Below, in pieces: positions 57 through 61,088 of a stretch of 64,000 nucleotides of DNA; position 1 is the first letter of the stretch, and each line of letters opens with the position of its first letter. The stretch spans positions 34,579,144 to 34,643,143 of the forward strand of contig NC_052392.1 in NCBI RefSeq assembly GCF_009389715.1, written 5' to 3'. The translations under genes and the position numbers were made by a program. This stretch comes from Phoenix dactylifera (Eukaryota > Streptophyta > Magnoliopsida > Arecales > Arecaceae). Below the pieces are notes generated by a model. It saw only the letters and a list, made by a program, of their open reading frames with translations. It was not told the DNA's origin and did not search any database.

Positions 57-967
57 CAGATGCTTCAATTTGAATAGTTAGAGGTTCCTCTAGTACTGCT
101 GTCTTCATTTCATTGAATAACTTCAAAATAGAGCAATAGGAAGTTGAGTGATTTAAACAACATAATAAGGAACTAAACTGAAATCTAACTCTGGTTCTCC
201 TACCTTGCGAAACAGATCGCTCTTCCGGGATAAAAGCTTAGAGTTGACATTGATGACTTCGTCCCCAGAACCATCTCCAGTAGTAGAAAAATCTACACCC
301 CTTGACCGTCTAGAAATATAAGTACCTTCAATCCAAAAAGAAAGAAATATAAGTACCACATGGAGCCCAATCCCTACAGTAACAGAGAGCGCAAGCTGTA
401 TTGTATTTAGGGGTGACAAAAGTGGAGTGTAGATCTGCCCTCTCTCTCTCTCTCTCTCTGTGAAACTGAAAGAAAGAAGGTGCATATTGCATCTACTGTC
501 CATTGTTTTGGGCTCTTTTTGAAGCAGTCATTTAAAATTTGCCAGATTGTGATAAAAAGCAGAAGCATGTTAAAAATCTAGATACTTAAGTACATTAGAT
601 ATGCTATCTTTTCCATGTATATGTAAACAGTAGATGTGCTTATGAAGCAAAGTTGCATTGTTGACGAACGAATATTTCTTATTCATCGAATTGTTAAAAA
701 GGATTAACAAAAAAGGATACTGTTCAAGGAATGGTAGACACTCTGAAAACTTTCACCATTTCTGACGTTGTCCGATCCTTCTGCTTCGGGTTTCGGAGAC
801 TCTTCTGTGGCGATGCGTTCCTCACCGTGTGGTCGCTTTGAAACTATCTGTACCCTTAGGGCATGGTCTGGGAGATAGAGAAGATCTCTTTCCTTGATGA
901 ATGAATTGAATCCTTTGAGAGCGTTGCCTTTTCCATCTGCTTCGGTCTTCTCCTCGGGTGACGCCAT
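57..967 (-). CDS. BTB/POZ-BACK protein (POB1/LRB-like), copy 1, 5' part only
   Basis: This is the 5' part of a gene that leaves the window on the left. I infer exon 1 at 757-967 (ATG at 965-967), exon 2 at 204-373 and exon 3 at 57-120. All have GT/AG borders, with phase 1 then phase 0 junctions. Exon 1 encodes a leader starting MASPEEKTEADGKG and ending PKPEAEGSDNVRNG. Exons 2 and 3 encode the start of a BTB fold (VINVNSKLLSRKSDLFRK, then LFNEMKTAVLEEPLTIQIEAS). The same exons occur with the same phases in the gene at 13460-17825, so the two are tandem paralogues. Proteins of this family are usually substrate adaptors of CUL3 ubiquitin ligases, acting in the nucleus; that role is from the family, not from this sequence. 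The rest of the BTB and BACK domains would lie outside the window. Confidence 0.8.
312..357. repeat. 31-bp duplication inside exon 2 of BTB copy 1
   Basis: A 15-bp word, agaaatataagtacc, occurs at 312-326 and again at 343-357 (period 31). The paralogous exon at 14941-15080 has only one equivalent. With a nearby 1-bp loss, exon 2 is 170 nt instead of 140 nt, a net gain of 30 nt, so the BTB frame is kept while about ten extra hydrophobic residues (including VVLIFLSFW) are read just before the BTB fold. Confidence 0.75.
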
Positions 968-7156: not shown

Positions 7157-10100
7157 TTTTCCCACTTGGCCCACGTAGCATAAAGGTGACAAAACTGTAT
7201 TATGGCCATTAAATTTATCCAATCTTGTATCCTTTATCAAGAAATACCATTACATGAATCATAGCGGTTATATCTTATTATGAAGACATTTTCTTCCATG
7301 TATTACAATGTAAGGTATTTATTGATGTGTACTTTATAAGATACATCCATATCTTACTGAATGACTAAATAATAGTCCCTTAGGGTCCATTTTTTATGTA
7401 TCAAAAGATACCATACATGACAAAGATAAACTTTATGTGCATAACCATAGTCATGTATCAAAGCTGTAAGCATTATTCACATTTATCAAATGAGCTAATA
7501 AGTCCCATATGATCCACATGATTAGTGTAAACTTTAGCCGGCAATGCTTTAGTCATGGGATCAGCAATCATCAGCTCAATACTGATCTTCAGATCTTACT
7601 TCATCTCTCACAACCAAATACTTTATATCTATGTGCTTATTACGGCTGCCATTTTTGTTATTCTTAGAGAAGAAAACTGTAGCCAAATTATCACAATAGA
7701 TCTTTATTGGTCTTGATATAAAATCAACGATCGTTAATCCTGCTAGCCTGTGAAGTTGCTTCATAACATGCAACAAATTCTGCTTCTATGGTTGATGAAG
7801 TAGTTATAGACTTTCTTGTATCCGAACATCCAGCAAAAACTAAATTTGGATATCCGACAACCTCCAAGAAATCCGTATGTCTATAAGTAAGCTTGAAGTT
7901 CTTGGTTCCTTATAAATACCGCAGCACTTTCTTGGCAGTTTTCCAATGTTCCTGCCCTGGATTGCTTTGGTATTTTCTCAACATTCCTACTGTAAATGCA
8001 ATGTCTAGACGAGTACATACTCGAGCATACATCAAGCTACCAAATACAGAAGCATAAGGTATGCTTTTAGTATGCTCCAGTTCCAAACTATTTTGTGGTG
8101 ATTGTGTTAAACTGAATTTGTCTCCTTTGACAATGGGTGCTATTGAAGGTGAACAAAACTTTATATTAAATCTTTCTTAAAACTCTTTCAATGTAGGCCC
8201 TTTGAGATAATCTCAATATCCTTCGGGATCTATCTCTATGAATCTCTATGCCAATGAGATATAAGGCTTCACCCAAATCATCATCTCAAAGTGTTTGGAA
8301 AGAAAATCTTTAGTTTCACGTAGCAAACTTAAATCACTGGTTGCAATTAAAATATCATCCACATATAGGACTAGAAAGATATATTTACTCGCACTGACAT
8401 TAAGGTATATATACTGATTAACAATGTTCTCCGTAAAACCATATGAAGTAACAATATTGTGAAACTTGATATACCATTGTCGGAAGGCCTGTTTAAGTCC
8501 ATATATAGATTTCCTTAACTTGCAAGCCAGATGACTATCCTTACATGAAAATTTTTCAGGCTGATCCATGTATACCATTTCCTCAAGATCACCATTCAAG
8601 AAAGTCATTTTCACATCCATCTGATGTAGCTCTAAGTCAAGATGAGCTACTAATGCCATGACTATCCTAAAAGAGTCCTTCTTAAAAACTGGAGAGAAGG
8701 TCTTATGGAAATCAATTGCTTCCTTTTGAGTAAAATCTTTGGCCACAAGTCTAGCCTTATATCGCTCAACACTACCAGAGGAGTCCTGTTTGGTCTTAAA
8801 GACCTATTTACAGCCAATGACTTTTACTCTTTGTGGTAACTCGATGAGATCCCAGACTTAATTTTTAGCCATTAATTCCATCTCTTCCTTCATGGCATCA
8901 TGTTATAGAGAGGAATGATCCCCTGTCATGGCTTCTAAAAATGAATTAGGATTAACTTGAGGTCCAATATCAAAATCGGATTCTTGAAGGTATACAAGGT
9001 AGTCGGTAGATATTGCTAGTCTCCTTATTATTGAGGATCGTCTTGATTCAATAAGAGGTTCTATATGAGTTTATTCCTCAAGGCGTGGTTGCTCCTAAAT
9101 TAGTTGTTCTTCAATTATATTTTGAACTGGATTTTGAAAAATAACCATATTCCCAATTGATTCTCCACTTGGTTCACCAATTGGTTCATATATTTCCTCA
9201 AACGATATGGTTCGAGAAAAAATCACTCCCACTAAACTCATGATCCTCAAGAAATTTAGCATTTCTAGCTTCAACGATTTTAGGTGTGTATGCGGGACAA
9301 TTGAACTTGAATTCCTTGGAGTTTACAGCATACCTAATAAAGAAACCGCTAACTGTCATGGAGTCTAATTTCTTCATGTGTGGATTATAAATCCTCACCT
9401 CAACTGGACAACCCTATATGTGTAAATGTCCTAAACTTGGTTTCCATTCTTTCCACAACTCAAAAGGAGTTTTAGGAACAAGCTTAGATGGAACTTTATT
9501 TAGTACATATACAACGGTTTTTAAAGCTTCACTCCATAGCTTGATAGGAATATTCGAATGACTAAGCATGCTCCTTACCATGTCCATCAGCATATATTCC
9601 TTCTTTCTGTCACACTATTTTGTTGTGGTGTTTCCGGCATTGAATATTGAGCAAAGGGTGTCACACTATAGAGATATATATATCGAGTATGGTCATCAAT
9701 GAATGAGATAAAATATCTCTGACCATTCAGACAGGGTGGGGTAAATGGTCCACAAAGATCTGTGTGTATTATCTGTAGAGTCTCAGAACTCTTTTTGGCT
9801 CCTTTAGTGGTCTTGTTGGTTTTCTTTTCCTTTATGCCATCCACACAAGCACCAAAGTTGGTAAAATCAAGAATATCTAGTACCCCTTCATTTACTAACC
9901 TCTTTATTCTTGCCATTCAGATATGTCCCAATCGCCTATGCCATAATAACGAGGAGTTCTCTTTAATAATATTTCTCTTTATGCCAATTTTTAGGGAGAG
10001 AAAAATCCTACATGATATTGGCAATGTGAATTTTGGTACCAGAATCAATTCACCATATATTATAGAAACATTAACAAAATTAGACTCGTAACACACAAGA

Positions 10101-10930
10101 GATAGTAGATTACCTTTTCTTCTCGAGCCACTTCTATATTTGGTACAATCCTTCTTCATGTGTCCCGTTTTCTTGCAAAAGAAGCATGCAACCTTATTGC
10201 CTTCACGCTTGGAAGACACTTTAACATTCTTCCTTTTAAGGACACCTTTTTCTTTATGAGCCTTTCCTTTACCTTGAGATGCCAAATTAGCAACTTCAAG
10301 AGTCTCATGTTTTAATCTTTCTTCCTCTTGAAGACACATGGTTAGGAGTTCATTAATTGACCATTTTTCCTTATGTGTGTTATAGAAAATTTTAAAAGGA
10401 CCATATTCCTTAGAAAGAGAGTTCAAAATGAAATGTACCAAAAATGACTTTGAAATCTCTATCTCTAAACTCTGAGTCAAGCAACAATGTCATGCATCTT
10501 CATAATGTATTGACGCACACTTTTAGAACCGTTATGCCTCATGACTGAAAGCCTTTTCATTAGGGTGCTAGCCAATGCCTTATCAGAACTGATAAACTGC
10601 TTTTCTATGGCCTTTATGAAATTCTTTGCCTTATGGCAGTCAAGGATCGAACCCCAAATGCCCTTACTGATATAAGACTTAATGAGCATCAAACTTTAGC
10701 GATTAGATCGCTCCCACTGCTCACAAGAAGCCTCATCAGTTGGCGAACTTGATTCCGTGGGGACGCGTGGTTCATCTACATGAAGCGCCAAATCAAGGTC
10801 CAAACACCCCAAAGTCAACAAAATTTTATCTTTCTAGTTAGAATAATTATCACCACTCAATAATGGAACTCTAGATGATTCAGTACTCAAAAATGTAGTA
10901 GGAATAACTGTAATAACCAAGAACATATTA
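7157..10930 (-). pseudogene. Degenerate Ty1/copia gag-pol (copy A)
   Basis: Minus-strand reading from right to left gives a copia order. Gag lies at 10930-9917, with a CCHC knuckle CFFCKKTGHMKKDC near 10140-10190 and the pre-integrase motif LLWHRRLGHI. Integrase fragments follow (IHTDLCGPF near 9740-9780, [14 protein letters not shown] near 9590-9640). Reverse transcriptase lies at 8746-8246 (HQMDVKMTFLNGDLEEMVYM, SIYGLKQAFRQWYIKFHN, FLVLYVDDILIAT) and RNase H to about 7490 (IKIYCDNLATVFFSKN, then ADPMTKALPAKVYTNHVDHM). Many stops and frameshifts break it, so it cannot encode one polyprotein. Confidence 0.88.
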
Positions 10931-13459: not shown

Positions 13460-16400
13460 TCAACCATCATGTCTTGGGCGTGGGAAGCCATCCATTGCTG
13501 GAATTGGGCAGTCATATGACTCATCTTGCTGATGGCAAGTTATCTCTATGCATAGGTGAAGAATGCCTCCAAGCAAGAAAGGGCAGTTGCCACTAAGAAG
13601 TTGTTCCCATATCCCTGGGAGAAGATCATCGCAGCCGAAAGTTATCTGATTAGCAACAACAAGCGAGCCTCTATCCCTCTCCTGAAACTCCTCTCTATCA
13701 TCTACTTTCGACATCGCCAGAAACCTAATAACATAGACAATCACATCCGAGCAGTCCCCCTTGGCAGTGACATTCAACCCAAAATAGTGTCTCTCTCTAG
13801 TCCATTTGCAGGAAGACACTAGACTGAAGACTTGGTGACCAAACATGAAGTCCTCGGACTCTCTTCTACCCACTGGGTACATCTCTAACAGTTCATTTTC
13901 TGTAAGACTAAAATAGACAACACAACGGTCAAATGCTGGTGACTGGAGCCTGCTAACCATTACGGGTGTGCGCTCGTAACACCGCTCAAAAAATTGGCTG
14001 TTAGAAAACCCTCCGACGGCAAGTCTGCGGCAGTATGGCCCCCTGACCTTGAAAGCCAGGGCTTGGTTAACAGCCTTGAGTATGGATTCTTGGTCAAAAA
14101 TGTCGCACTGTAGGGCCTCTTCCAGTTTTTGCCATGTCAGGTAAGGGAAGCGAATGAGGCGTTCAAGGTGCAATTCCTTAGCAGAGCAGCGGTCCTCCGT
14201 ATTTGGATAATGATTCTGGGCCCAAGCTCGTATAAAATCATAAACAACATCTTCTGATTCCACCTTGAGGGTGTCCACGCAGAAGAGTGCCTCAATTTTA
14301 TCAAAGGATAGTTGAAGAAGTTCATCCTTGTGGCTAGTCATTGAAATAAATGGTTTTATGAGCTCCTTCTAAGGTAAATTTTGTTGACGATCATTTACAA
14401 ACGTTAAAAGAAATGTGGAAAAGACTAGCTGATAGTAGTAAGAAGCTACCTCATTATGTCACTGCATATCTTAGATTTCTGCTCCTTTTCTACCTTAATT
14501 AGCAATTCTCTTAGATAAAGTTCATGCACTCTAGCAGAAAGCTCGCAGCAAGAAAGTGCCCATTCAATCTTCATCTCCAGCAGTCTGATGCAGACCTCAG
14601 CACATGAAAATGCCTGGAACTCATCTGAGATCATCAGCAAATTCACAATCTCTGTATAGGAGGATGGCGACATAGTGGAAAAATATATGAACTCCAGAAG
14701 TCCACTGAAGGCTTCTTCTTCTGTTACATCAAATCAAATTCAAAATATCACAACGATGATGGAGCCAACTAAGTAACGTACAAAGAAAGATTCTTTAACA
14801 CATACCAGATGCTTCAATTTGAATAGTTAGAGATTGTGCTTCTGGTTCGCTCTTCATTTCATTGAAAAGCTTCACATAGAATGGATGAGTGAAGTAGACA
14901 AGGCAATACAGTACTAAGCTGAACTTGATTCAATTCTTACCTTGAAAAACATATTGCTTTTCTTGGATAAGATTTTGGAATTTACATTGATTACTTCTTC
15001 TGCAGAATCATCTCCATCAGTAGAAAAATGCACACCCTTTGATTTCCTAGAGATGTAATTAACATGTGGAGCCTGATTGCCTACAGAAACATACAATGAA
15101 TATTAATGTATTTATGTGTGATAAAAATTAGTGCACCTGTCTTTTCTCTGTTTCTCTTAGTAAAAATAAAAAAGCTACTAATGTGGAACTTGTGACTACT
15201 TCATTTGTTTTTGCACTATAATTCATATATAATATAGCAGAGACCGTAGTTTAGTTCATAACAGGATGCACTGTTGATTCCAAGTAGGAAATCGGTCGTT
15301 TTAAAGTAGTCAAACTATGATATAAAGCATAAGCAAGTTAGTTGGAATGCTAAACTATTGTATAGCCATCAGAGTACATTTGAAGATGAGTTTTAGATAC
15401 TCAAATATATTAGATATGTTTAATAGCCAAAGATGCTGAAAAACAAACTTCCATCTTATGCAATTTTAAATTTTCATTCATACTATTTTTTTGCTAAAGA
15501 AGAAAAGACATCTAATAGAAGGCTATTAGGAAATAAATTCGATAATACAATTTATATGGGCACTAAAACTCAATCCACTTTAGCAATAAAATACATGGCA
15601 ACCAAGTCAAATGTGCTCGCAACATCACAAAGCTACATGCAATATAAAGTGAGCTCTACGAGAATAGATCCATTTAGAAGAGAAACTAATAGGGTTTTCT
15701 ATCTTCAATAGACTTACAAGTAGAACTGCGATGCATAAACGAAATGTAGTCATGCAAATATGCACCAATCTAAGTAGAATGAATGCAGCATGGATAATCA
15801 GGAAGAAATGAAAGATTGGAATGATGTATGATGGCCCATATGTTTCCCAAGTTCTTCTATCTTTTTCTGAGGGAATACATTCTTCTCTCACTTCCATTAC
15901 CTTCTTGTTTCATAGCATTCCAGATATTTCACAAGGTTTACTCATTTAGTCTCTCTTCCAATATTGTGATGATTATCACAAAAATTATTCAACGATCATA
16001 TCCATTCCCTTCAATTATTTCTTTCTTGGTATCTGCACATATACTAGATCCATTACCTTACTGATATAATTCTTTTAAAGCAAAAGAAAGCAACTACTAA
16101 ATCACTCGAAGAAATAAACACTCAGGAAGCTGACAGCATTATATCAAATGCCTCAAGATTATCCACAACCAACTGAGGAAACCAATCTAGTTAATCTATC
16201 CCAAAACAGGCAAAAGAAAGGCGTAATTGAAATAATTGAACAAGAAAAAGATCCACAGAATGGCCAGACTTAAATATTAATGGACTTAAGCTTGGAAAAT
16301 AAATCACAAAACAAAAGCAAGTTTTCTTGAAAGCTTGTCACTTGTTCCTTTTTATCTGCATGTCTACCACAATCACTTCCTAACTCATACAAATTGTTTC

Positions 16401-17825
16401 CAATTAAGGAAATGAAAAGAAATGCATCAATCGAATCACCCAAAAAAGAATAGTAATTGAGATATAAGTACTCATCTAAAGAAGAACAGTATGTCTGCTT
16501 GGGAACAGATAAAAACTATATAGCCCACCATAAAGATCATATTAAAGGCACATTAGAATCGTTGAAAGATTACTGAAATCAGTGAAATGAAATTGTCAAA
16601 TCCTCATTGATGTTGGGAGCAGAAGAAATAATCCAGCTTGCAAAGTAGTTCAGATATAAACTCTCACTGTTCTTGATGACACTTGATTCCTCTGCTTCAT
16701 GCTTCAGAGTATCTCTGTCTGGGATGCCTTCTGTCTTATCAGGTTGCAGAAAATTTGTATCACTATTCTTGATGATACTCAATCTCTCTGCTTCTGACTT
16801 CAGAGAATTTTCTGCGGCATTGCCTTCTCCACCATCTGCTTTCAGAAAAATGAAAAAAAAGAAGGCAAAACCTCATTGGGTTCATGAACAAAAGAAGAAA
16901 ACTATGCAAGAAATGGTAGGAAAATCAAACCATCAACGTTCTCCACAAGACCCGATCCTTCTTCTTCCAGCTTCTGAGTATCTTCTGCCAGGATGCCTTC
17001 ACTGTCATCACGTTGCAGAGAATTGACATCACCATTCTTAAAGATGCTCGATCCCTCTGCTTCTGTATTCAAAGAACATTCTGCAGCAACGTCTTCTCCA
17101 CCATCAGCTTGCAGAGAAATGAAAAAAAAATAAATCAATAAATTGCCAAAATCTCAACGAATTGAAAAGGTTACAGCCCAAGAAATAGGATGAACACCGA
17201 ACCCTCACTCACTGTTCCTGAAAACACTCGATCCCTCTGCTTCAAGCTTCACAGCAGCTTCGGCAGCAATATCTTGCCCACCGTCAGCTTTTGCAGAAAA
17301 ATGATAAAATTTTCAATATATTGTCCTCAAAGAATAGCTGAGTATAAAACGATTTGGGAATAGATTGAAGAATAAAGCTCAAAAAATTGTAGAAAGACCA
17401 AATCCTCACCGTTCTTGACAATGCTCGTTTCCTCTTCTTCAGGCTTCGGTGCATCATCTCTGGCCACCCCTTCCCCACCATCAGCTTTCCAAAAAATGAT
17501 AACAAATCAACGAATTGCCGAATCCTCATTGAATTCATGAATAGAAGAAAGAATGCAGCTCAAGAAATGTTAGAAAGATCAAAACCCCACCACTCTTGGT
17601 GATAATTGATCCCTCTGCTTCAGGCTCTAAAGGAACATCTGCCGCAATTCTTTCGCCGAGATCAGGTAGTGGTTTCGAAACTATCCTTACAACGAGGTCG
17701 TTGTCTGGAGGATGGAGAAAGTGGCGTTTGGTGAGGAACGAATTGAAGCGTTTTAGAGCCTTTCTTGGATCTCTTTGGTTCATTTTCCAGGACAACTCCT
17801 GCTCGGATGACCCCATGGATTCCAA
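13460..17825 (-). CDS. BTB/POZ-BACK protein (POB1/LRB-like), copy 2, with amplified N-terminal exons
   Basis: Nine exons with GT/AG borders and consistent phases: 17591-17825, 17410-17484, 17213-17287, 16931-17107, 16668-16838, 14941-15080, 14806-14869, 14450-14720 and 13460-14333. They sum to 2082 nt, 693 residues. The start is either ATG at 17823-17825 or the one three codons on, which aligns better with copy 1. Residues about 53-244 are a tandem acidic repeat. The BTB domain follows (about 250-345: VINVNSKILSKKSNMFFK, EEAFSGLLEFIYFSTMSP), then BACK (SFDKIEALFCVDTLKVESED, YDFIRAWAQNHYP) and the LRB-type C-terminus (SGNCPFLLGGILHLCIEITC). Family members are nuclear CUL3 adaptors, which I infer here. 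From memory Arabidopsis POB1 is about 560 residues, so this protein is longer, chiefly from the repeats. The domains look intact; expression is unknown. Confidence 0.85.
15081..16667 (-). other. Large intron of BTB copy 2
   Basis: A 1587-bp AT-rich intron between the last repeat exon and the first BTB exon. In copy 1 the first exon joins the corresponding BTB exon across only 383 bp. No gene or element was recognised in it. Confidence 0.6.
16668..17484 (-). repeat. Tandemly amplified phase-1 exon/intron unit in BTB copy 2
   Basis: Four neighbouring exons of 75, 75, 177 and 171 nt, each a multiple of three and each bounded by phase-1 introns, encode related peptides. Their starts are ADGGEGVARDD, ADGGQDIAAEA, ADGGEDVAAEC and ADGGEGNAAEN, and their ends resemble EAEGSSIFKN. 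The two longer exons each hold a second, more diverged unit ending KLEEEGSGLVEN or KHEAEESSVIKN. The short introns (92-122 bp) also share words such as caagaaat and agaaaga, so exon and intron seem to have been copied together. The tail of exon 1 (PLEPEAEGSIITKS) resembles the same unit. Confidence 0.85.
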
Positions 17826-18880
17826 GAATGGAGAAAGAAAGATAGGATGTGGAGATCTCAGTAACTAATCCTAATTCTGAAGCAGAGATGGGAAAAGAAA
17901 GAAAGGAAGAAGCCCGCCAACATGAGGAAAATAACGGCTTTTTAAAGGAGCTCCCGGATATATCCCCCCAAAGGAAGAACCACTCATTTGCAAAGAACTT
18001 TTAAGAGAAGCACTTCTTCACATAATCACATGGCAATTTTCCCTCCCCTCTTTGGAGAGTACGTTAAAACCCTCGTTCATTTATTTGATTGAGGGCATGA
18101 AATGCATTTGGCACAAGATATCAAGGATCAGAACCATGCTATCCACTACAGCGGCTTTAAAATCCGTGTTACAACATTTTAAATAAGATAGAGGAGAAAA
18201 TATCTACATAAAATATATGGTGATTGGGTATATTATCCATGCGTACGTGTAAAGGCCCAGTTTAAAGCGGGCTTGGGCCAGCTGCTTGGGCTGCTCAGCA
18301 AGCCCTTCCTCCCTAGTTTCGACAAGGAAAGGGGTGTTTGAGGGCACCTAGAACTCCATCAAGCCTAAGAAATTTCATCTACATAAGGCTCTTTTTCTTC
18401 TCTATTGAATCCCATCTCAAATCTCTCGACAGAAGCCGCCCATTCCAAGCTCTTCCTCTGAGTTCTTATTTTGTTTTTCGCCGAAAAGGGGTCGCCGAAT
18501 CTTCACCAGATTGAGGTAAGGAGTCGAACTTTTTCTTCCTCATGGTTTCTTGGCTTGATGGCCGAGGTCGCCAATTGTTTTGGACCGATGAGCAGCTAGA
18601 AAGGCATGAAACAGGGTTGTCCCTACTTCCTTGTCTTTTTCTTGGATTGTTGACCACTGCCGGCCACGGCTCATGCTTGGGACTAATGCCATCGCCGTCG
18701 GGTGGAGGAACTGCTGCGGGCCATTGTCCCTCAGCTCTGCCATAGCGGGTTGAGAAGAAGAGGGAGAGAGATGTCTCCACTATTTTAAGTAGAAGAGAAG
18801 GCTCTCTCTCTCCTCTTTTCTCTCGCTCTCTAATGTTTCTCTCTTTATCACTCTTTTTTCTCTCTAGATATTTTAGGACT
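17826..18880. other. Upstream region of BTB copy 2; unassigned repeat-like sequence
   Basis: The first 400 bp are the presumed promoter side of the BTB gene. From about 18240 the sequence changes to GC-richer text with pyrimidine-rich runs (18800-18870) and short frames with no recognisable protein. It resembles LTR/leader sequence elsewhere in the window, but I cannot assign it. Confidence 0.4.
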
Positions 18881-38269: not shown

Positions 38270-40546
38270 ATGGCACTTTTGTCATCCTTCCACTATGTGT
38301 GGATGGCAGTAGCCATACTTACCTCACATATGATACCAACATCAGCTGAAGTTGCCACCTATATTGTCCACATGGACTTATCAGCCATGCCCAGAGCCTT
38401 CTCAGGCCACCACAGCTGGTATACCTCTGTCGTCGCCGCCGCCACCGCCACCTCTGACTCGATCTCTCCAACCTCCAACCTCATCTATGTCTATGACAAT
38501 GCTATTCATGGATTCAGCGCTCGACTCTCGCCATTGCAGCTCCAACAACTCAAGAGATCACATGGCTACTTGTCGTGCTACCGTGAAATGCCGGTGACGG
38601 TTGACACCACCCACACCCCCGAATTCCTCCACCTTAGTTCAGGTTCCGGTTTGTGGCCGGCCTCCAACTATGGCGAGGACGTCATAATTGGGGTGGTCGA
38701 CACCGGGATATGGCCCGAGAGCAAGAGCTTTAGTGACGACGGCATGACCGACGTGCCTGCCAGATGGAAGGGCGTCTGCGAGCAAGGCACTGCTTTCAGC
38801 TCCTCGGCGTGCAACCGAAAGCTCATCGGAGCCCGAAGCTTCAACAAGGGCTTGCTTGCAGCACACCCAAACCTCACCATTGTGGTCAATTCCCCGCGTG
38901 ACACCGAAGGTCATGGCACGCACACCTCCTCCACCGCTGCCGGGAATTACGTCCCCGACGCGTCCTTCTTCGGGTACGCACCAGGCACGGCCCGGGGGAT
39001 GGCGCCCCGTGCGCGGCTAGCCATGTACAAGGCTCTTTGGGATGAAGGAAACGCCATGTCCGACATCATCGCCGCAATCGACCAAGCTATATCTGATGGC
39101 GTGGACGTCATCTCCCTATCTTTGGGCTTCGACTTCCTCCCACTCTACAAGGAACCCATTGCCATGGCCTCCTTCGCCGCCATGGAGAAGGGGATATTCG
39201 TCACGACCTCCGCAGGCAACAGGGGCCCAGACTTGCGGGTCCTGCACAACGGGACCCCCTGGGTCACTACCATCGCCGCCGGCACCGTCGATCGGGGCTT
39301 CGCCAGCATCGTCGATCTCGGAGATGGTGGCTCCATCACTGGGCAATCACTGTACCCTGGAAGACCACCTTCCACCAGGCATGCATTTCCCTTGGTGTTC
39401 ATGGGGTCTTGTGGCAACAAGACCCTGCTGAAGAATGCGCGTCACAAGATGGTAGTATGTGATGCCAAGGATCTCAGCTTTGCCACCTTCCAAGTAGAGT
39501 CTGCCAAAGTGGATGCTGCCCTCTTCATACATGCTAAAGTGGACTTATACGTCCAATTCTCATTCCCTGGGGCTATCATCAGCCCTCAAGATGGTAAGAC
39601 CATCTTGGAGTACATAAATAAAAGCTCGAACCCGAGAGCCATGTTGAGATTTCGGGAGACCATCTTGGGCACAAAGCCTGCCCCCATGGCGGCTGACTAC
39701 ACCTCCAGAGGGCCCTCGGCGAGCTGCCCAACTGTGCTGAAGCCAGACATTTTGGCTCCTGGCAGCTTCATCCTTGCATCTTGGGCGCAGAATTCATCGG
39801 TAGGGTTCGACAGGTCCCGTGAATTGTATAGCCCATTCAACATCATATCAGGAACATCCATGGCCTGCCCTCATGCAGCAGGCATAGCTGCAATGATCAA
39901 GGGTGCAAGGCCGGACTGGAGCCCTGCGGCAATTCGATCTGCGCTGGTGACCACCGCAAACAATTTGGACAACACGATGATGCCAATTAGAGACATGGGG
40001 TATGCCGATCGGCCGGCGGCGACTCCGCTGGCTATCGGGTCCGGTCTCATTGAGCCCAACAGGGTACTCGATCCTGGTCTTGTCTATGATGCCAGCACCG
40101 AGGACTATGTGAGACTCTTATGTGCCATGAAATATACCAGCAAGCAGATAAAGATGATCACCAAGACCTATTCTTTCGATTGCTCGCATGCATCTTTAGA
40201 TCTCAATTATCCATCGTTCATTGCATTCTTCGATCCTAACAAGACTGCTGCTAGCGATAAGGTTGTCCAAGAGTTCCGAAGGACGGTGACGAACATGGGA
40301 GATGCGGTGGCGAGTTACAACGCCAAGGTGGTGGCTATGAAGGGGTTTGCAATCAGGGTCGTGCCGGAGAAGTTGGTTTTTCACGAGAAGTACGAGAAGA
40401 AAAGTTTCGCTCTCATTCTGGTAGGCCAGATGGGGAAGAAAGCAGATGAGGTGCTTCATGGTTCATTAAGCTGGATGGATGATAAAGGGAAGTATGTGGT
40501 AAGGAGCCCTATAGTGGCAACTACCATCAACTCAACTCGGTTGTAG
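38270..40546 (+). CDS. Subtilisin-like protease, SBT1.9/SBT3 type (gene 1)
   Basis: A single-exon 758-residue secreted serine protease of family S8 (plant subtilases act in the apoplast and cut peptides or wall proteins). A signal peptide (about 1-26, ending MIPTSA) precedes an inhibitor-I9 propeptide ([20 protein letters not shown] to about 118). The catalytic domain has Asp144 ([12 protein letters not shown]), His215 ([10 protein letters not shown]), oxyanion Asn317 (TSAGNRGP) and Ser530 ([12 protein letters not shown]). A PA-type insertion lies at about 355-470. The Fn3-like tail starts near [12 protein letters not shown] (645). Its text, including the ...TYIVHMD start and RSPIV end, fits the tomato SBT3 class as I remember it. 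The start is supported by the signal peptide and a cATGg context. It looks functional. Confidence 0.95.
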
Positions 40547-46329: not shown

Positions 46330-46509
46330 ATGGTTCTAATCTCTCTCATCAAATCAGCCTGTTCATATTCGGCATCATAATTTGGTAATTTGTGGCTGTC
46401 TTGAGCATGGTTTTCTCTTTTTGTGGTCTCTCCTTTTGTCGATTTGTGTTCGGCGTTACTTTCGTTTGCGGTGAATTTCTTCCTCTCAGCTTTTTTCTTC
46501 TCTTTTCCA

Positions 46510-49500
46510 ATGGAGAATCATCGTTATACTGTTAAGCTAGATGGTGAAATTTACTTCTTATGGTCTTCCTATTTTCAAAACTTCTTGGAAGGACAAGAAC
46601 TATGGGGCTATGTTGATGGAAGTGTCCAAAAACCAAAAGATGGATCTATTTCAAAATGGGTGATGAATAATGCTAGAATAAAGACATGGATTATGGAATT
46701 TGTAGAAAGTTCTATTACTGTAAACTTGAGTCCTTTAGTTACTGCAAAAGATATGTGGGAGTATCTTAAACTAATTTTTCAGCAAAGTAATGAGGCTCGA
46801 TTATATCAACTTGATCAAGAGTTGAGTTCTGTGACTCAAGGTTCTAAAAGTGTGTAGGAATTCTATTCTGCAATGATGCTGATCTGGAATGAGATGGATA
46901 TGATTGATGCTGACATTCCTAAAGCTGTTGTCGAAACTGTTCGCAGATTACGGCGTCGTTCTCATTCTCATCAGTTTTTAATGAAAATGAGATCAGAGTT
47001 CAAGCATGTCAGGGTATCCATACTCAATCGTGGAAGAAGTGTGACCTTGACAAAATGGTTATTGAATTACTTGCAGAAGAGACTCGTTTGAAATCTCTTT
47101 CCTCTATTTTGCTTAAAGATGCATCTCTTGATGCCACACTTGTTGCTAGTACATATAGAGGAAAGGAGCATGACATAAGCAAGGTTGAATGCTACTCTTG
47201 TCATAAATTAGGGCACTTAGCGAGTCATTGCAAGAAGAGGGTTACAAATATCAACACTAATCTCTTCTGTAGGTATTGCAAAGAGAGAAGACATTTGATT
47301 AAACAATGCAAGAAGTGGCCTCCACGCAGAGAACCATCCAAAGCATATGCTGCCTTTCCAACTTCAAGTGATGATCCATATGCTCAAACTACTTCATCCG
47401 AGGTCTCATCTAAACCTTCCAATCAGATTTTCTCTAACAAGTCATATAAGCTCTTGATGCTTCTGGTTTTGGTAAGCTTAATACTAAAACTTCTTGGATC
47501 TTAGACTCTGGTGTTACACACCACATGACTGAAAATTTAGATCTATTTAAGAAAATAGTGCCAAATGATAAAGATGAGAGAATCCTTGTTGCCAATGGAC
47601 AATCCCTTGATGTCAAAAAAATTGGTTCATTATCAATTCCTCTTTCTGACTCATCTTCTTTATTTCTTTCCCATGTATTATATGTGCCCAAGCTATCTGC
47701 TTATTTGATTTCAATTAGTCAACTTGTGAAACAAAATTACCTCGTCTCATTTTCTTCCATTGGTTGTGTAATACAGGACCTACGGACCACAAAGGTGATT
47801 GGGAGAGGCCGTAAAAATGGGGAACTCTTTGTGTTGGACTTCAAAACATCATCAACTTCTCCTAGATGCTTTCTTGCTCCTTCTAGTTTTGAAATAAATT
47901 CTGCAAACAAACTTTAGAGGCTTTGGCATTATCATCTTGGCCATCCTCATGCTTTAAGTTTGAATTCCTTATTTTCATCTGGTGTTTTACCTGATACACT
48001 TACTCACAAATCTGAAATTAATAAAACTTGTGATGATTGTGCCCTTGCAAAAGTTCATACCCTACCTTTTACTAGAAGTATGAACCAAGTTGCTTCTGCA
48101 TTTGATCTTATTCATTCCGATGTATGGGGACCTACTCGTGTTAGCTCATTATCTGGAAAATACTATTATGTGTTATTTGTTGACGATTAGTCGAGATTTT
48201 CATGGGTATATTTTCTGCAGCAAAAATCTGAAGTTATGTAGGTTTTCAAGTATTTTCACGCTATGGTACATACACAATTTAATAAGAGTCAAAATTCTAC
48301 GCTCCAACTCAGGGGGCGAGTACATGTCAAAAGATTTTGTTGAATATCTAGCTACCGAAAGAATTATTCATCAGAGAAGTTGTCCTCATCAACCCCAACA
48401 AAATGGAGTTGCAGAGCAAAAGCACTGGCACATCGTGGAAACTGCACGTGCATTGCATCTCCATGCTTCTCTACCGAGCATATTTTGGGCGGAAAGTATT
48501 TCAACTGCTGTTTACTTGATCTATCGATTACCTACTACAGTGTTGGGTAATATTTCTCCATTAGAAAAATTATTTGGGCATTCTCCAAATTACAAACTAC
48601 TCAAAATTTTTGGGTGCACCTGTTATGTGCTGCTTCCTACCTCTGAATATTCGAAACTGGATGCCAAATCAATTAAGTGCATATTTCTTGGATATTCAGA
48701 AACACAAAAGGGATATCGTTGCTTTGATTGGGTGAACAAGAAAATGAGAATTTTCAGAAATGTAGTCTTCTTCGAAAGTACCCCATACTTTTCCTAGTTT
48801 TCTACCTCTACTTCATCTTATTCTTTAATTGCTCCCGTGTCATCATTTTCTAACACCATGCAGAATTTTGAAACATCTGAAAGAAGCAATGCAGTTCGCC
48901 TTGATATGCCTCCTCCAACACCAACTCGCGATGCAGGTGCTACTTTTCCAATTGATCCTCCACCACAAATACATTCTCTGTCACTACCTTTACCACTTCG
49001 ACATTCACGTCGGAATGTTAAACCACCAGATCGTCTTTCACTATTTTCTGTTCTAAATCCAATTTCCATTCCCGGATCCTACAAGCATGCATCAGAAAGT
49101 ATGGAGTGGAATCAAGCTATGAAGCAAGAGCTAGAAGCATTAGAAGCCAATCACACATGGGACATGGTTCGTGCTCCTCCAAACCACCCTATTAGAGGTA
49201 GCAAGTGGGTCTATTCAATCAAGCTGAGATCTGATGACTCTTTTGATCGTTACAAAGCACAACTTGTCGCCCAAGGTTTCAATCAAGAACATGAAATTGA
49301 CTACGATGAGGTCTTTGCTCCAGTTACTAAAATGATCACCATTCGTACTTTAATTGCTATTGGAGCAACCTCTAATTGAGACATCTATCAAATGGATGTC
49401 AAAAATGCATTTCTTAATGGTGAGCTCTCCGAAACTGTTTATATGCGACCCCCTCTAGGATATCCAATTTCTTCACCACATCCAGTTTGCAAGTTGAAGA

Positions 49501-51045
49501 AGGCATTGTACGGCTTAAAACAAGCACCATGGGCATGGTTTTCTAAATTAAGGGCTCGTTTGGTTCGCGGGAAGTATTTTCCCTCCTAGGAATATGATTC
49601 CTGGGAATCAGATTCCTAGGAAGAGAATACCTAGGAAAGTACTTTTGGCATGTTTGGTTAACCATGGGAAAGTGACAAATTTCCAAAGTGTTTATGTTTG
49701 GTTGACCATCCACTTTCCTAGGAAAGTTATGTATAATTCCTATTATGCCCTTAATAAAAATTATGTCTTTAATGCCTCTTTAATGCTTCTTTAATGCTGA
49801 AGGGTCCTTTTGGGAAAAAAATAAAAAAGGAGTGATTCTCACCTCATAAGAAAGTAACTTTCCCATGTTTGTCATGGGAAAGACTTTCCCATGAAATGTG
49901 GGAATCATATTCCCATGGGAATACAACTTTCCCATCTCTCTCCTTTGAAAACTCCAACCAAACAAGAGGCATTTCATTACTTTCCCGTTGACCACACTTT
50001 CCCCCCTCCTTTTCCTGCGAACCAAACGAGCCCTAAAAGTTGTTCTTCATAGTGCTGGATATAAGCAAAGTCTACAATGATTATTTTTTATTCTATTCCA
50101 AAACCACTCATAGAAGGGTTTTCATTTTGGTCTATGTTGATGATATATTGATAACCGGAGATAATCATCAAACTATAAAGAATTTAAAAGACGTTCTTCA
50201 CCAGTCTTTTCAAATGAAAGATCTTGGGTTAGCTACCTATTTTCTTGGATTAGAAATTTCTCGATGTCCCCATGGGTATTTTCTTAACCAAGGCAAATAC
50301 ACAAGAGATCTTTTTAATCTAGTTGGGCTTATAGATGAAAAAACTGCAGATACTCCTCTTGAGCTAAATGTCAAATATGGGAGGACTGATGGAGATGCCA
50401 TTGCTGATCCTACACTCTATAGGAAGGTAGTTGGTAGTCTCCTGTATCTTACAGTGACACGTCTTGATATTGCTCATGCCGTACATATTATAAGTCAATT
50501 TGTTTCAGATCCTCGCCAATTGCACTTAACAACGGTACATCGAATTATTCGGTATCTTTGTTCTACTCCAACCTTGGGTTTATCCTATTTGAAATCCTCC
50601 TCTTTTGAGCTGCGAGCATTCTCGGATGCAGATTATGTCGGTTGCAAAGATATGAGACGATCAACTACTAGCTATTGTACATTTTTTGGTCGCTTATTAC
50701 TTTCTTGGAAATCAAAAAAGCAAGCCACGGTTTCGAAGTCCTCCACAGAATCAGAGTATCGAGCAATGTCTTCTACGTGTAGTGAAATCGTCTGGCTCCG
50801 ATGACTCCTTGGTGATTTTGGAGTTGCTTCTACTTCTCCCACTCTGTTATTTTGCGACAATGAAAGTGCCGTAAAAATTGCCAACAAGCCCGTTTTTCAT
50901 GAAAGGACAAAACATATAGAGGTGGATTGTTATTTTGTTCGTGAAAAATTTGAATAGGGCATTGTTTCACTACCACATATTTCTTCAAAGGAACAAATTG
51001 CTGATATCTTTACAAAGACGTGACCAAAGAATCGTCATAACTACT
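46510..51045 (+). pseudogene. Ty1/copia gag-pol (copy C), interrupted
   Basis: Starts at ATG 46510 (MENHRYTVKLDGEIYFLWSS). Gag has a TAG after GSKSV (about 46857) and two knuckles, CYSCHKLGHLASHC and CRYCKERRHLIKQC. A protease site (SWILDSGVTHHMT) and pre-integrase (HYHLGHPHALSL) follow. Integrase has HSDVWGP, GGEYMSKDF and NGVAEQKHW. Reverse transcriptase starts SMEWNQAMKQELEALEANH and is split by a 482-bp MITE after APWAWFSKL, resuming with FILVYVDDILITGD. RNase H includes SKSSTESEYRAMSSTCSEIVWL and FCDNESAVKI. Several stops and shifts plus the MITE make it inactive. Confidence 0.92.
49552..50033. mobile_element. Tourist-like MITE (PIF/Harbinger type)
   Basis: A 482-bp element with long terminal inverted repeats (GGGCTCGTTTGGTTCGC at the left and its complement at the right), flanked by the 3-bp target duplication TAA (49549-49551 and 50034-50036). 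The interior is rich in tttccca/tgggaaa inverted words. It has no coding capacity. It sits inside the copia reverse transcriptase, so it inserted later. Confidence 0.85.
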
Positions 51046-51424: not shown

Positions 51425-53707
51425 ATGGCACTTCGGTTATCCTTCCACTATGTGTGGATGGCAGTAGCCATACTTACCTCACACATGATACCAACATCAG
51501 CTGAAGTTGCCACCTATATTATCCACATGGACTTATCAGCCATGCCCAGAGCCTTCTCAGGCCACCGCAGCTGGTATACCTCCGTCGTCTCTGCCGCCGC
51601 CACCGCCCCCTCCGACTCGATCTCTGCAACCTCCAACCTCATCTACGTCTATGACAATGCTATTCATGGATTCAGCGCTCGACTCTCGCCATTGCAGCTC
51701 CAACAGCTCAAGAGATCACATGGCTACTTGTCGTGCTACCGAGACATGCCGGTGACGGTCGACACCACCCACACCCCCGAATTTCTCCACCTTAGTTCAG
51801 GTTCCGGTCTATGGCCGGCCTCCAACTATGGCGAGGACGTCATAATTGGGATGGTCGACTCCGGGATATGGCCTGAGAGCGAGAGCTTCAGCGACGACAG
51901 CATGACCGACGTGCCCGCCAGATGGAAGGGCGTCTGCGAGCAAGGTACTGCTTTCAGCTCCTCTACGTGCAACCGGAAGCTCATCGGAGCCCGGAGCTTC
52001 AACAAGGGCTTGCTCGCTGCAAACCCAAACCTCACCATTGCGGTCAATTCCCCACGTGACACCGACGGTCACGGCACGCACACCTCCTCCACCGCCGTTG
52101 GGAATTACGTCCCCGGCGCGTCCTTCTTTGGGTACGCACCCGGCACGGCCCAGGGGATGGCGCCCCGTGCGCGGCTGGCCATGTATAAGGCTATTTGGGA
52201 CGAAGGAGCCGTCACGTCCGACATCATCGCCGCAATCGACCAAGCTATATCTGATGGCGTGGATGTCATCTCCCTATCTCTGGGCCTCGGCTTCTTCCCC
52301 CTCTACAAGGATCCCATTGCCATGGCCTCCTTCGCCGCCATGGAGAAGGGGATATTCGTCGCGACCTCGGCGGGCAACTATGGCCCAGGCTTGCGGGTCC
52401 TGCACAACGGGACCCCCTGGGTCACCACCATCGGTGCTGCCACCGTCGACCGGGACTTTGCCAGCATCGTCGATCTCGGAGATGGCAGCTCCATCAACGG
52501 GCAATCAATGTACCCTGGAAGGCCACCTTCCACTAGGCATCATGCATTGCCCTTGGTGTTCATGGGGTCTTGTGGCAACAGGACCTTGCTGAAGAATGCG
52601 CGTCACAAGATGGTAGTATGTGATGCCAAGGATCTTGAATTCGCCACCTCTCAAGTTGAGTCTACTAAAGTGGATGCTGCCCTCTTCATATCTGCTAAAG
52701 TGGACTTATATGTCAAATTCTCGTTTCCTGGGGCTATCATTAGCCCTCAAGATGGTAAGACCATCTTGGAGTACATAAATAAAAGCTCGGACCCGAGAGC
52801 CATGTTGAGATTTCGGGAGACCATCTTGGGCACAAAGCCTGCCCCCATGGCGGCTGACTACACCTCCAGAGGGCCCTCGGCGAGCTGCCCAACTGTGCTG
52901 AAGCCAGACATTTTGGCTCCTGGCAGCTTCATCCTAGCAGCTTGGGCACAGAATTCATCGGTAGGGTTCGACGGGTCTCATAAATTGTATAGCCCATTCA
53001 ACATCATATCAGGAACATCCATGGCCTGCCCTCATGCAGCAGGCATAGCTGCAATGATCAAGGGTGCAAGGCCGGACTGGAGCCCTGCGGCAATTCGATC
53101 TGCACTGATGACCACCGCAAACAATTTGGACAACACCATGATGCCAATTAGAGACATGGGGTATTGCGATCGGCCAGCAGCAACTCCGCTGGCTATCGGG
53201 TCCGGTCACATTGAGCCCAACAGGGCACTCGATCCTGGTCTTGTCTATGATGCCAGCACCGATGACTATGTGAGACTCTTATGTGCCATGAAATATACCA
53301 GCAAGCAGATAAAGACGATCACCAAGACCTATTCTTTCGATTGCTCTCATGCATCTTTAGATCTCAATTATCCATCGTTCATTGCATTCTTCAATCCTAA
53401 CAAGACTGCTGCTAGTGATGAGGTTGTCCAAGAGTTCCGAAGGACGGTAACGAATGTGGGAGATGCGGTGGTGACTTACAACGCCAAGGTGGTGGCTATG
53501 AAGGGGTTTGCAATTAGGATCGTGCCGGAGAAGTTAGTTTTTTACGAGAAGTACGAGAAGAAAAGTTTCGCTCTCATTCTGGTGGGCCAGATGGGGAAGA
53601 AAGACGATGAGGTGCTTCACGGTTCATTAAGTTGGGTGGATGATAAAGGGAAGTATGTGGTGAGGAGTCCTATAGTGGCAACTACCATCAACTCAACTCG
53701 ATTGTAG
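51425..53707 (+). CDS. Subtilisin-like protease, SBT1.9/SBT3 type (gene 2)
   Basis: A single-exon 760-residue paralogue of the subtilases at 38270 and 58806. A signal peptide ([20 protein letters not shown]...) and I9 propeptide lead into a complete catalytic set: Asp145 ([12 protein letters not shown]), His216 ([10 protein letters not shown]), Asn318 (TSAGNYGP) and Ser532 ([12 protein letters not shown]). The PA-like region carries SAKVDLYVKF as in gene 1, but RHHALPL as in gene 3, a mosaic pattern. The Fn3-like tail is intact ([19 protein letters not shown]). The protein looks functional, but its promoter is changed: a copia element sits about 90 bp upstream of the ATG and the TATA-like motif differs. 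Its 3' flank is block A, unlike genes 1 and 3. Confidence 0.95.
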   Translation: MALRLSFHYVWMAVAILTSHMIPTSAEVATYIIHMDLSAMPRAFSGHRSWYTSVVSAAATAPSDSISATSNLIYVYDNAIHGFSARLSPLQLQQLKRSHGYLSCYRDMPVTVDTTHTPEFLHLSSGSGLWPASNYGEDVIIGMVDSGIWPESESFSDDSMTDVPARWKGVCEQGTAFSSSTCNRKLIGARSFNKGLLAANPNLTIAVNSPRDTDGHGTHTSSTAVGNYVPGASFFGYAPGTAQGMAPRARLAMYKAIWDEGAVTSDIIAAIDQAISDGVDVISLSLGLGFFPLYKDPIAMASFAAMEKGIFVATSAGNYGPGLRVLHNGTPWVTTIGAATVDRDFASIVDLGDGSSINGQSMYPGRPPSTRHHALPLVFMGSCGNRTLLKNARHKMVVCDAKDLEFATSQVESTKVDAALFISAKVDLYVKFSFPGAIISPQDGKTILEYINKSSDPRAMLRFRETILGTKPAPMAADYTSRGPSASCPTVLKPDILAPGSFILAAWAQNSSVGFDGSHKLYSPFNIISGTSMACPHAAGIAAMIKGARPDWSPAAIRSALMTTANNLDNTMMPIRDMGYCDRPAATPLAIGSGHIEPNRALDPGLVYDASTDDYVRLLCAMKYTSKQIKTITKTYSFDCSHASLDLNYPSFIAFFNPNKTAASDEVVQEFRRTVTNVGDAVVTYNAKVVAMKGFAIRIVPEKLVFYEKYEKKSFALILVGQMGKKDDEVLHGSLSWVDDKGKYVVRSPIVATTINSTRL

Positions 53708-58805: not shown

Positions 58806-61088
58806 ATGGCACTTCTGTCGTCCTTCCACTATGTGTGGATGGCAATAGCCATACTTACCTCACAGATGATACCAATATCAGCTGAAGTTGCCACCTATAT
58901 TGTTCACATGGACTTATCAGCCATGCCGAGAGCCTTCTCAGGCCACCGCAGCTGGTATACCTCCGTCGTCTCTGCCGCCGCCACCTCCGACTCGATCTCT
59001 GCAGCCTCCAACCTCATCTACATCTATGACAATGCTATTCATGGATTCAGCGCTCGACTCTCGCCATTGCAGCTCCAACAGCTCAAGAGATCACATGGCT
59101 TCTTGTCGTGCTACCGCGACATGCCGGTGACGGTCGACACCACCCACACCCCCGAATTCCTCCACCTTAGTTCAGCTTCTGGTCTGTGGCCGGCCTCCAA
59201 CTATGGCGAGGACGTCATAATTGGGGTGGTCGACTCCGGGATATGGCCCGAGAGCGAGAGCTTCAGCGACTACGGCATGACCGACGTGCCTGCCAGATGG
59301 AAGGGTGTCTGCGAGCAAGGTACTACTTTCAGCTCCTCGGCATGCAACCGGAAGCTCATCGGAGCTCGAAGCTTCAACAAGGGCTTGCTCGCTGCAAACC
59401 CAAACCTCACCATTGCGGTCAATTCCCCGCGCGACACCGACGGTCACGGCACGCACACCTCCTCCACCGCCGCCGGAAATTATGTCCCCGACGCGTCCTT
59501 CTTCGGGTACGCACCCGGCACGGCCCGGGGGATGGCGCCCCGTGCGCGGTTGGCCATGTACAAGGCTCTTTGGGACGAAGGAGTCGCTACGTCCGACATC
59601 ATTGCCGCAATCGACCAAGCTATATCTGATGGCGTGGATGTCATCTCCCTATCTCTGGGCCTTGACTTCATCCCCCTCTACAAGGATCCCATTGCCATAG
59701 CCTCCTTCGCCGCCATGGAGAAGGGGATATTTGTCGCGACCTCGGCGGGCAACAGGGGCCCAGACTTGCGGGTCCTGCACAACGGGACCCCCTGGGTCAC
59801 CACCATCGGCGCCGCCACCGTCGATCGGGACTTCGCCGGCATCGTCGATCTCGGAGATGGCAGCTCCATCATCGGGCAATCACTGTACCCTGGAAGGCCA
59901 CCTTCCACCAGGCATCATGCATTGCCCTTGGTGTTCATGGGGTCTTGTGGCAACGAAACCTTGCTGAAGAATGCGCGTCACAAGATGGTAGTATGTGATG
60001 CCAAGGATCTCGACCTTGCCACCTTCCAAGTTGAGTCTGCTAAAGTGGATGCTGCCCTCTTCATATCTGCATCCTTGTTGAAGGACTATTACGTGCAATT
60101 CTCATTCCCCGGGGCTATCATCAGGCCTCAAGATGGCAAGACCATCTTGAAGTACATAAATAAAAGCGCAGACCCGAGAGCCATGTTGAGATTCCGGAAG
60201 ACCATCCTGGGCATAAAGCCTGCCCCCATGGCGGCTTTCTACACCTCCAGAGGGCCCTCGGCGAGCTGCCCAACCGTGCTGAAGCCAGACATTGTGGCTC
60301 CTGGCTCCCTCATCCTAGCATCTTGGGCGCAGAATTCATCGGTAGGGTTCGTCAGGTCTCATGAATTGTATAGCCCATTCAACATCATATCAGGAACATC
60401 CATGGCCTGCCCTCATGCAGCTGGCATAGCTGCAATGATCAAGGGTGTAAGGTCGGAATGGAGCCCTGCGGCGATTCGATCTGCACTGGTGACCACCGCA
60501 AACAATTTGGGCAACACCATGATGCCAATTAGAGACATGGGATATGCCGATCGGCCGGTGGCGACTCCGCTGGCTATCGGGTCCGGTCAGATTGAGCCCA
60601 ACAGGGCACTCGATCCTGGTCTTATCTATGATGCAAGCACCGACGACTACGTGAGACTCTTATGTGCCATGAAGTATACCAGCAAGCAGATAAAGATGAT
60701 CACCAAGACCTATTCATTCGATTGCTCGAATGCATCTTTAGATCTCAATTATCCATCGTTCATTGCATTCTTCAATCCTAACAAGACTGCTCCCAGTTAT
60801 AAAGTTGTCCAAGAGTTCCAAAGGACGGTGACAAATGTGGGAGATGCGGTGGTGACTTACAACGCCAAGGTGGTTGCTATGAAGGGGATTGCAATCAGTG
60901 TCATGCCCGAGAAGTTAGTTTTTCACGAGAAGTATGAGAAGAAAAGCTTCGCTCTCATTATGGTGGGCCAGATGGGGAAGAAAGCGGATGAGGTGCTTCG
61001 TGGTTCATTAAGCTGGGTGGATGATAAAGGGAAGTATGTGGTGAGAAGTCCTATAGTGGCAACTACCATCAACTCAACCCGGTTGTAG
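58806..61088 (+). CDS. Subtilisin-like protease, SBT1.9/SBT3 type (gene 3)
   Basis: A single-exon 760-residue secreted protease, the third intact member. Signal peptide ([20 protein letters not shown]...), I9 propeptide ([20 protein letters not shown]) and catalytic domain with Asp143 ([12 protein letters not shown]), His214 ([10 protein letters not shown]), Asn316 (TSAGNRGP) and Ser532 ([12 protein letters not shown]). It differs from genes 1 and 2 in the PA-side loop [12 protein letters not shown] (two residues longer) and in several charged sites ([28 protein letters not shown]). The Fn3-like tail is complete ([20 protein letters not shown]). Its 3' flank is shared with gene 1 and with the remnant at 57661. 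Substrates are unknown. Confidence 0.95.

Follow-up and report, generated by a model that had tools for sequence, protein, structure and literature searches.

A lengthened acidic N-terminal tail in a date palm BTB-BACK gene and its probable origin by tandem duplication across an exon-intron boundary

The gene designated G1 of the date palm, Phoenix dactylifera, encodes a predicted BTB-BACK protein and carries, between its first exon and its BTB exon, a series of short exons that resemble each other. The locus raises the question from which sequence these exons and their introns were copied, and by which steps this happened without a shift of the reading frame. A symmetric exon lying inside intron 1 and copied together with its intron was originally predicted from the sequence of the window (the whole stretch of 64,000 bp that was analysed, C1:34579144-34643143). 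That account was right in outline as to the process, but the source appears to be different, and both the shrinkage of an intron and an ancestral unit in exon 1 had been missed. We consider it probable that the tail of G1 grew by tandem duplication of a piece of approximately 180 bp straddling the boundary of exon 1 and intron 1. The sequence comparisons that argue for this concern the similarity of units and introns, the presence of only one unit in each of five relatives, the edges of the copied module and the match between linkers and intron ends.

The G1 gene and its repeat exons

In a splice-consistent model, G1 is predicted to consist of nine coding exons on the minus strand (window 13460-17816), encoding 687 aa without an internal stop. 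The predicted features are as follows.

17591..17816, minus strand: exon 1 (E1), 226 nt, phase-1 end; the last 75 nt (17591-17665) are the putative ancestral unit
17485..17590, minus strand: intron 1 (i1), 106 nt; resembles i2-i5 and the intron-1 starts of the paralogues P2, P3, P4 and RB
17410..17484, minus strand: repeat exon E2, 75 nt, one unit
17288..17409, minus strand: intron 2 (i2), 122 nt
17213..17287, minus strand: repeat exon E3, 75 nt, one unit
17108..17212, minus strand: intron 3 (i3), 105 nt
16931..17107, minus strand: repeat exon E4, 177 nt; unit E4a (17033-17107), linker (17012-17032), unit E4b (16937-17011) and 6 nt added by a putative donor shift
17012..17032, minus strand: E4 linker, 21 nt, read as the first 6 and last 15 nt of a shrunken intron
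16839..16930, minus strand: intron 4 (i4), 92 nt, weak donor GTTTGA
16668..16838, minus strand: repeat exon E5, 171 nt; unit E5a (16764-16838), linker (16743-16763), unit E5b (16668-16742)
16743..16763, minus strand: E5 linker, 21 nt, with breakpoints identical to those of the E4 linker
16565..16667, minus strand: start of intron 5 (i5); the first ~100 nt are read as the last intron copy, followed by the presumed remainder of the old intron 1
13460..15080, minus strand: E6-E9, encoding BTB and BACK, with E6 at 14941-15080, E7 at 14806-14869, E8 at 14494-14720 and E9 at 13460-14368 including the in-frame stop (13460-13462)

Each of the exons E2 to E5 is preceded by AG and followed by GT, and all are phase 1. 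G1 contains seven units of 25 codons, located in the tail of exon 1, in E2, in E3, and twice each in E4 and E5. This is in agreement with the predicted two units in each longer exon and a total of about six plus a related exon-1 tail; in addition, each long exon contains a linker of 21 nt. An ungapped repeat finder returned a 70-nt unit in seven copies, of which the tail of exon 1 is the seventh. The array is absent from the list of Tandem Repeats Finder; its copies are diverged. All 21 unit pairs outscored all 300 shuffles, which ruled out chance similarity and bore out the claim that the phase-1 exons of 75, 75, 177 and 171 nt are related. The units are 57-79% identical in pairwise ungapped comparison, and this divergence, together with the agreement of three assembled copies of the gene (see below), ruled out an assembly artefact. 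The spacing between successive unit starts is 181, 197, 180, 96, 173 and 96 nt. Since two of these values are ~84 nt below the rest, the 96-nt spacings can be read as ~180 minus ~84.

The array adds 166 residues (498 nt) to the protein; the ~190 residues that had been predicted as new are obtained only when the exon-1 unit is counted as well (191). Among the 166 added residues D and E make up 26% and K and R 9%, with a net charge of -28, and the share of I, L, M, F, V, W and Y is 18%, versus 36% in residues 242-687. Judged by this composition, the N-terminal tail of G1 is probably disordered. In view of its acidity and few hydrophobic residues, our best guess is that the array would be a multivalent tail, tolerated or mildly useful, and no folded "domain".

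Pfam recognised a BTB domain in G1 at residues 270-357 (PF00651, E 4.5e-7, 30.5 bits versus a cut-off of 20.5), followed by a BACK domain at residues 391-471 (PF07707, E 1.1e-6, 29.1 bits versus a cut-off of 20.9). Neither Kelch nor any further Pfam family was found in G1 at E values up to 1, and the N-terminal third gave no match at E values up to 1. A search of the PDB sequences with the part following the array gave three weak matches, two to KLHL11 and one to KLHL3 (E 0.0003-0.0014). The product is most likely an adaptor of a CUL3-type ubiquitin ligase, where CUL3 binding is deduced from the family. According to the available part of one source, POB1 belongs to the BTB-BACK proteins and lacks Kelch repeats (PMC5249250), and the accessible text of another links LRB1/2 to CUL3 ligase complexes (PMC13075204). 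As far as these excerpts go, G1 resembles the POB1/LRB proteins in having BTB followed by BACK and no Kelch repeats (PMC5249250, PMC13075204). G1 is classed here as BTB-BACK only. The N-terminal repeat array of G1 sets it apart, since the same excerpts make no mention of one for POB1/LRB proteins; the original remark that none was known there is not contradicted by them (PMC5249250, PMC13075204). No account of G1 was found among the matches listed for date palm BTB/POB1 literature.

The single unit of the relatives and the probable extent of the copied piece

Both the array and the last exon were used as queries against the genome (773 Mb, 2391 contigs). The paralogues P2 (window 57-967), P3 and P4 are located in tandem with G1, P5 is on C1133, with apparently a second copy on C299, and a distant relative, RB, is found 1.8 Mb away on C1. 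Three more distant relatives, on C8, C9 and C42, 34-40% identical in the last exon, stand outside the exon-1 comparison, which covers P2, P3, P4, P5 and RB. In all five of these paralogues exon 1 ends in one unit just before a phase-1 donor, so that each of them is a relative with an unduplicated unit. In the window the P2 unit is positioned as follows.

757..831, minus strand: single unit of P2 at the end of exon 1, followed by a homologous intron-1 start

P2 does lack the extra exons, as had been noted; the end of its first exon, however, is itself a unit, with an identity of 0.52-0.67 to the seven G1 units. The unit of P5 is shorter and that of RB is recognisable mainly in its second half. 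Two observations on the structure of these paralogues may be added. The last-exon start of P4 (L012-L014, C1:34540000-34569999) is ~7 kb from the rest, and P4 was probably broken by an insertion. The region of the P2 BTB exon (window ~300-373) contains a short local duplication with two possible intron-1 acceptors, as judged by eye.

The introns of the array are also related, as was predicted. Five of the ten pairs among i1-i5 exceeded all 300 shuffles (i1 with i2, i3, i4 and i5, and i2 with i3), while the best pair containing a control was equalled by 14 of 300; introns 6 and 7, as well as later segments of the introns compared, served as controls. For the other pairs the number of shuffles reaching the score, out of 300, was 2 (i4-i5), 9 (i3-i4), 12 (i3-i5), 21 (i2-i4) and 87 (i2-i5). 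Intron 5 measures 1587 bp and resembles i1 over its first ~100 bp only, with 69 of 106 aligned positions identical and the similarity ending near the i1 acceptor. Such a limited likeness would be expected if the last copy continues into what was left of the old intron 1. A search of intron 5 of G1 for relics of further units gave nothing clear (best score 25, reached by 106 of 200 shuffles). The A + T content of i1-i4 is 65-71% and that of the repeat exons 45-58%. All seven units have remained 75 nt long, and a pairwise alignment of any two of i1-i4 contains 4-8 gap openings.

The intron-1 starts of P2, P3, P4 and RB each matched i1 better than all of 1000 shuffles. For the P2 start, the shuffles reaching the score, out of 300, were 0 with i1 and with i4, 34 with i2, 33 with i3 and 217 with i5. 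The best match of the P5 start to a G1 intron was reached by 22 of 1000 shuffles, and controls taken 400 bp into introns of P3, P4 and P5 reached values as low as 27 of 1000. The start of intron 1 thus appears homologous to the G1 introns in four of the five paralogues, P5 not clearly so. On a scale where real unit pairs score 34-88, no clear further unit was found in intron 1 of P2 (best score 22, 110 of 200 shuffles), P3 (25, 108 of 200), P4 (23, 177 of 200), P5 (28, 39 of 200) or RB (32, 16 of 100).

Because the relatives carry a unit at the end of exon 1 and none that is clear inside intron 1, the copied piece is best read as the 3'-terminal 75 nt of exon 1 together with ~105 bp from the beginning of intron 1. 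The copies of this segment in G1 are in tandem and include splice sites, as in an internal tandem duplication. A further exon-1 fragment, close to P2, was found at ~C1:34531989-34532072 (L020), with its exon-1 body kept. No unit was detected directly after this body (score 22, 62 of 200 shuffles), one weak unit-like score of 36 (6 of 200 shuffles) occurred within the next 1.6 kb, and no BTB exon was found near the fragment, which was therefore taken as a broken copy.

Splice sites, linkers and coding constraint

The donors of intron 1 (GTGGGG) and intron 4 (GTTTGA) look weak. At the end of the last unit of E4 the sequence TTGATG is found where other units have their GT donor, and the exon continues for 6 nt to GTTTGA; the 177 nt of E4, compared with the 171 nt of E5, would be due to this downstream move of the donor. 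Introns 1, 2 and 4 end in AAAG and intron 3 in CAAG, the latter before CTGATG. In exon 1 of P3 and P4 the unit start CTGATG is preceded by CAAC.

In both E4 and E5 the paired units are separated by 21 nt. Five intron composites, one of them shifted by two bases, were compared with these linkers. When the first 6 nt of intron 3 are joined to its last 15 nt, the composite agrees with the E4 linker at 17 of 21 positions, a value reached by none of 100000 shuffles; for the E5 linker the best composite agrees at 15 of 21 (9 of 100000). Among the 127981 21-mers of the window (both strands, linkers included), 6 reach 17 matches and 20 reach 15. E4 and E5 therefore look like pairs of units fused by the shrinkage of an intron to an in-frame linker, and the common breakpoints of the two linkers suggest that this shrinkage occurred once, followed by duplication of the double exon.

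The coding frame of the repeat exons is free of stops over its 166 codons, whereas the two alternative frames contain 5 and 17; none of 20000 base shuffles of these exons was stop-free. Each of the four short introns leads to a stop if retained, whereas skipping of a repeat exon keeps the frame. In a simple simulation along the tree, the pN/pS of the G1 units was 0.60 versus 0.83 for neutral evolution (40 of 2000 simulations as low), and that of all ten units was 0.61 (22 of 2000 as low). The three youngest unit pairs could not be distinguished from neutral (860 of 2000). Overall, the peptide would thus be under modest constraint, with none in the youngest pairs.

Two more assembled copies of G1 were found, L008 (C1:32975500-32985000) and L009 (C493:200500-210000), with 99.9% and 99.6% identity to G1 over 4.9 kb, respectively; one copy is inverted and located 1.6 Mb away on the same contig. 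Over the stretch 16600-17830 the two differ from G1 at 4 and 8 positions. All seven gap positions are intronic and two substitutions are exonic (one in E1, one in E5), so the repeat exons are intact in three assembled copies. E9 is frame-broken in both other copies, by one frame change in L008 and several in L009. Haplotypes left unmerged in the assembly, or a segmental duplication of recent date, may account for these copies.

Proposed history and comparable genes

In the proposed history, each copy of the boundary piece would have inherited the 5' splice site. Since the only splice site in the source was the 5' one, recruitment of acceptors was required, presumably where the pyrimidine-rich stretch of the intron meets the next copied exon end; this step is read from few bases and is the least secure. 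The copies would have become phase-1 exons, each adding 25 residues with the frame unshifted. Loss of ~84 bp from one intron would then have left the 21-nt in-frame linker within a 171-nt double exon, and duplication of the latter would have given E4 and E5. The resulting product would be an adaptor with an acidic, probably disordered N-terminal tail that is 166 residues longer.

A single amplification in G1 is the simplest and most parsimonious history. In the protein tree P2-P4 form a clade (97%) with G1 beside it and P5 and RB outside; the node that separates G1 from P5 is weak (47%). The units of P2, P3 and P4 are split from the seven G1 units in the unit tree (89%) and, with introns added, in the module tree (87%). 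Nodes within G1 are weak in the unit tree (32-72%), and three topologies for the order of duplication within G1 were equally likely in the AU test. The pS inside the array is 0.49; comparison of G1 with P2 in other exons gives 0.40 and 0.46. Going by distance only, the array is thus no younger than the split of these genes, and synonymous divergence did not settle the polarity.

The exon within intron 1 that had been proposed as the template would explain why the repeat exons are symmetric and travel with similar introns. However, intron 1 of P2-P5 and RB contains no clear unit-like exon (16 of 100 shuffles in RB), and the exon-1 tails are themselves units in all five paralogues read; we consider this template very unlikely. 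The frame-keeping amplification of exon plus intron, on the other hand, was upheld, in G1 only, the five paralogues having a single unit. Contraction of the paralogues to one unit from an ancestral array is given a similarly low probability. It would suit the divergence within the array, which is as high as that between paralogues, and the unit tree, which is unrooted, but with single-unit paralogues on both sides of G1 (at the weak node) at least two losses are needed, and clear relics are absent from intron 1 of the paralogues.

E2-E5 could also be mostly skipped or mis-spliced, the array being a slowly decaying intronic repeat without a role in the protein. The 166 codons without stop or frameshift, the two other copies, in which every gap of the compared stretch is intronic, and the pN/pS below neutral overall make this unlikely, even though the weak-looking donors of introns 1 and 4, exon lengths in multiples of three that let skipping keep the frame, the stops reached in retained introns and the unconstrained youngest unit pairs are what it would lead one to expect. 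The linkers, finally, could be exon-1 sequence copied from upstream of the unit instead of intron remnants, as their final CAAC matches exon 1 of P3 and P4 just before the unit. The upstream 21-mers of G1, P2, P3 and P4 match the linkers at 5-10 of 21 positions, however; the best values for the two linkers, 10 and 9, were equalled in 6663 and 20379 of 100000 shuffles, respectively. Such an origin is improbable and was rejected, the match to the intron ends (17 and 15 of 21) being far better.

Duplication of a boundary piece, which we thus prefer, has counterparts in other plant genes. In the potato RdRp gene an intron was gained by tandem duplication across an intron-exon boundary, as described in the accessible portion of PMC4974935. 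There, as proposed for G1, a boundary-crossing tandem copy made an intron of which one splice site was inherited and the other recruited. The potato gene inherited the acceptor and recruited the donor, whereas G1 would have inherited the donor and recruited the acceptor, a mirror image; G1 also differs in having several copies and a lengthened protein (PMC4974935, same portion). For Arabidopsis TOUCH3 this text reports an internal duplication that multiplied a pre-existing intron (Knowles and McLysaght 2006, cited in PMC4974935); it also cites Gao and Lynch for internal duplications. TOUCH3, a plant gene as well, resembles G1 in the joint tandem copying of exonic sequence and intron, but in TOUCH3 the whole intron with exon on both sides was copied and in G1 one side of a boundary (PMC4974935). 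The symmetric repeat exons in tandem are also reminiscent of tandem exon duplication (Kondrashov and Koonin 2001, cited in the part of PMC2674458 that was available), unlike which the source in G1 would not have been a complete exon.

G1 is a variant of a known mode of exon and intron gain, and an unusually legible one. According to the same text on the potato gene, it is rare that the sequence from which a gained intron arose can be identified (PMC4974935). Here one gene family holds the putative source, the copies, the unduplicated relatives and an apparent intermediate of intron death, which makes recruitment of acceptors and fusion of exons directly testable. If translated, the tail can lengthen in steps of 25 residues. 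A more far-reaching reading, which we regard as rather doubtful, is that introns were born in G1 from half an exon-intron boundary by means of recruited acceptors, that one of them died by shrinking to 21 in-frame bases, later copied within a double exon, and that the copies of the acidic motif provide the ubiquitin-ligase adaptor with several docking sites, whose number could vary through unequal crossing-over while the frame stayed intact.

Elsewhere in the window, similar ORFs are arranged in tandem on both strands (31153-32301, 38270-40546, 51425-53707 and 58806-61088). Three of them encode 758-760 aa, and the group looks like subtilisin-like serine proteases. Coding stretches resembling copia-type retrotransposons were noticed by eye at 8000-10900, 28021-30315 and 46423-50804.
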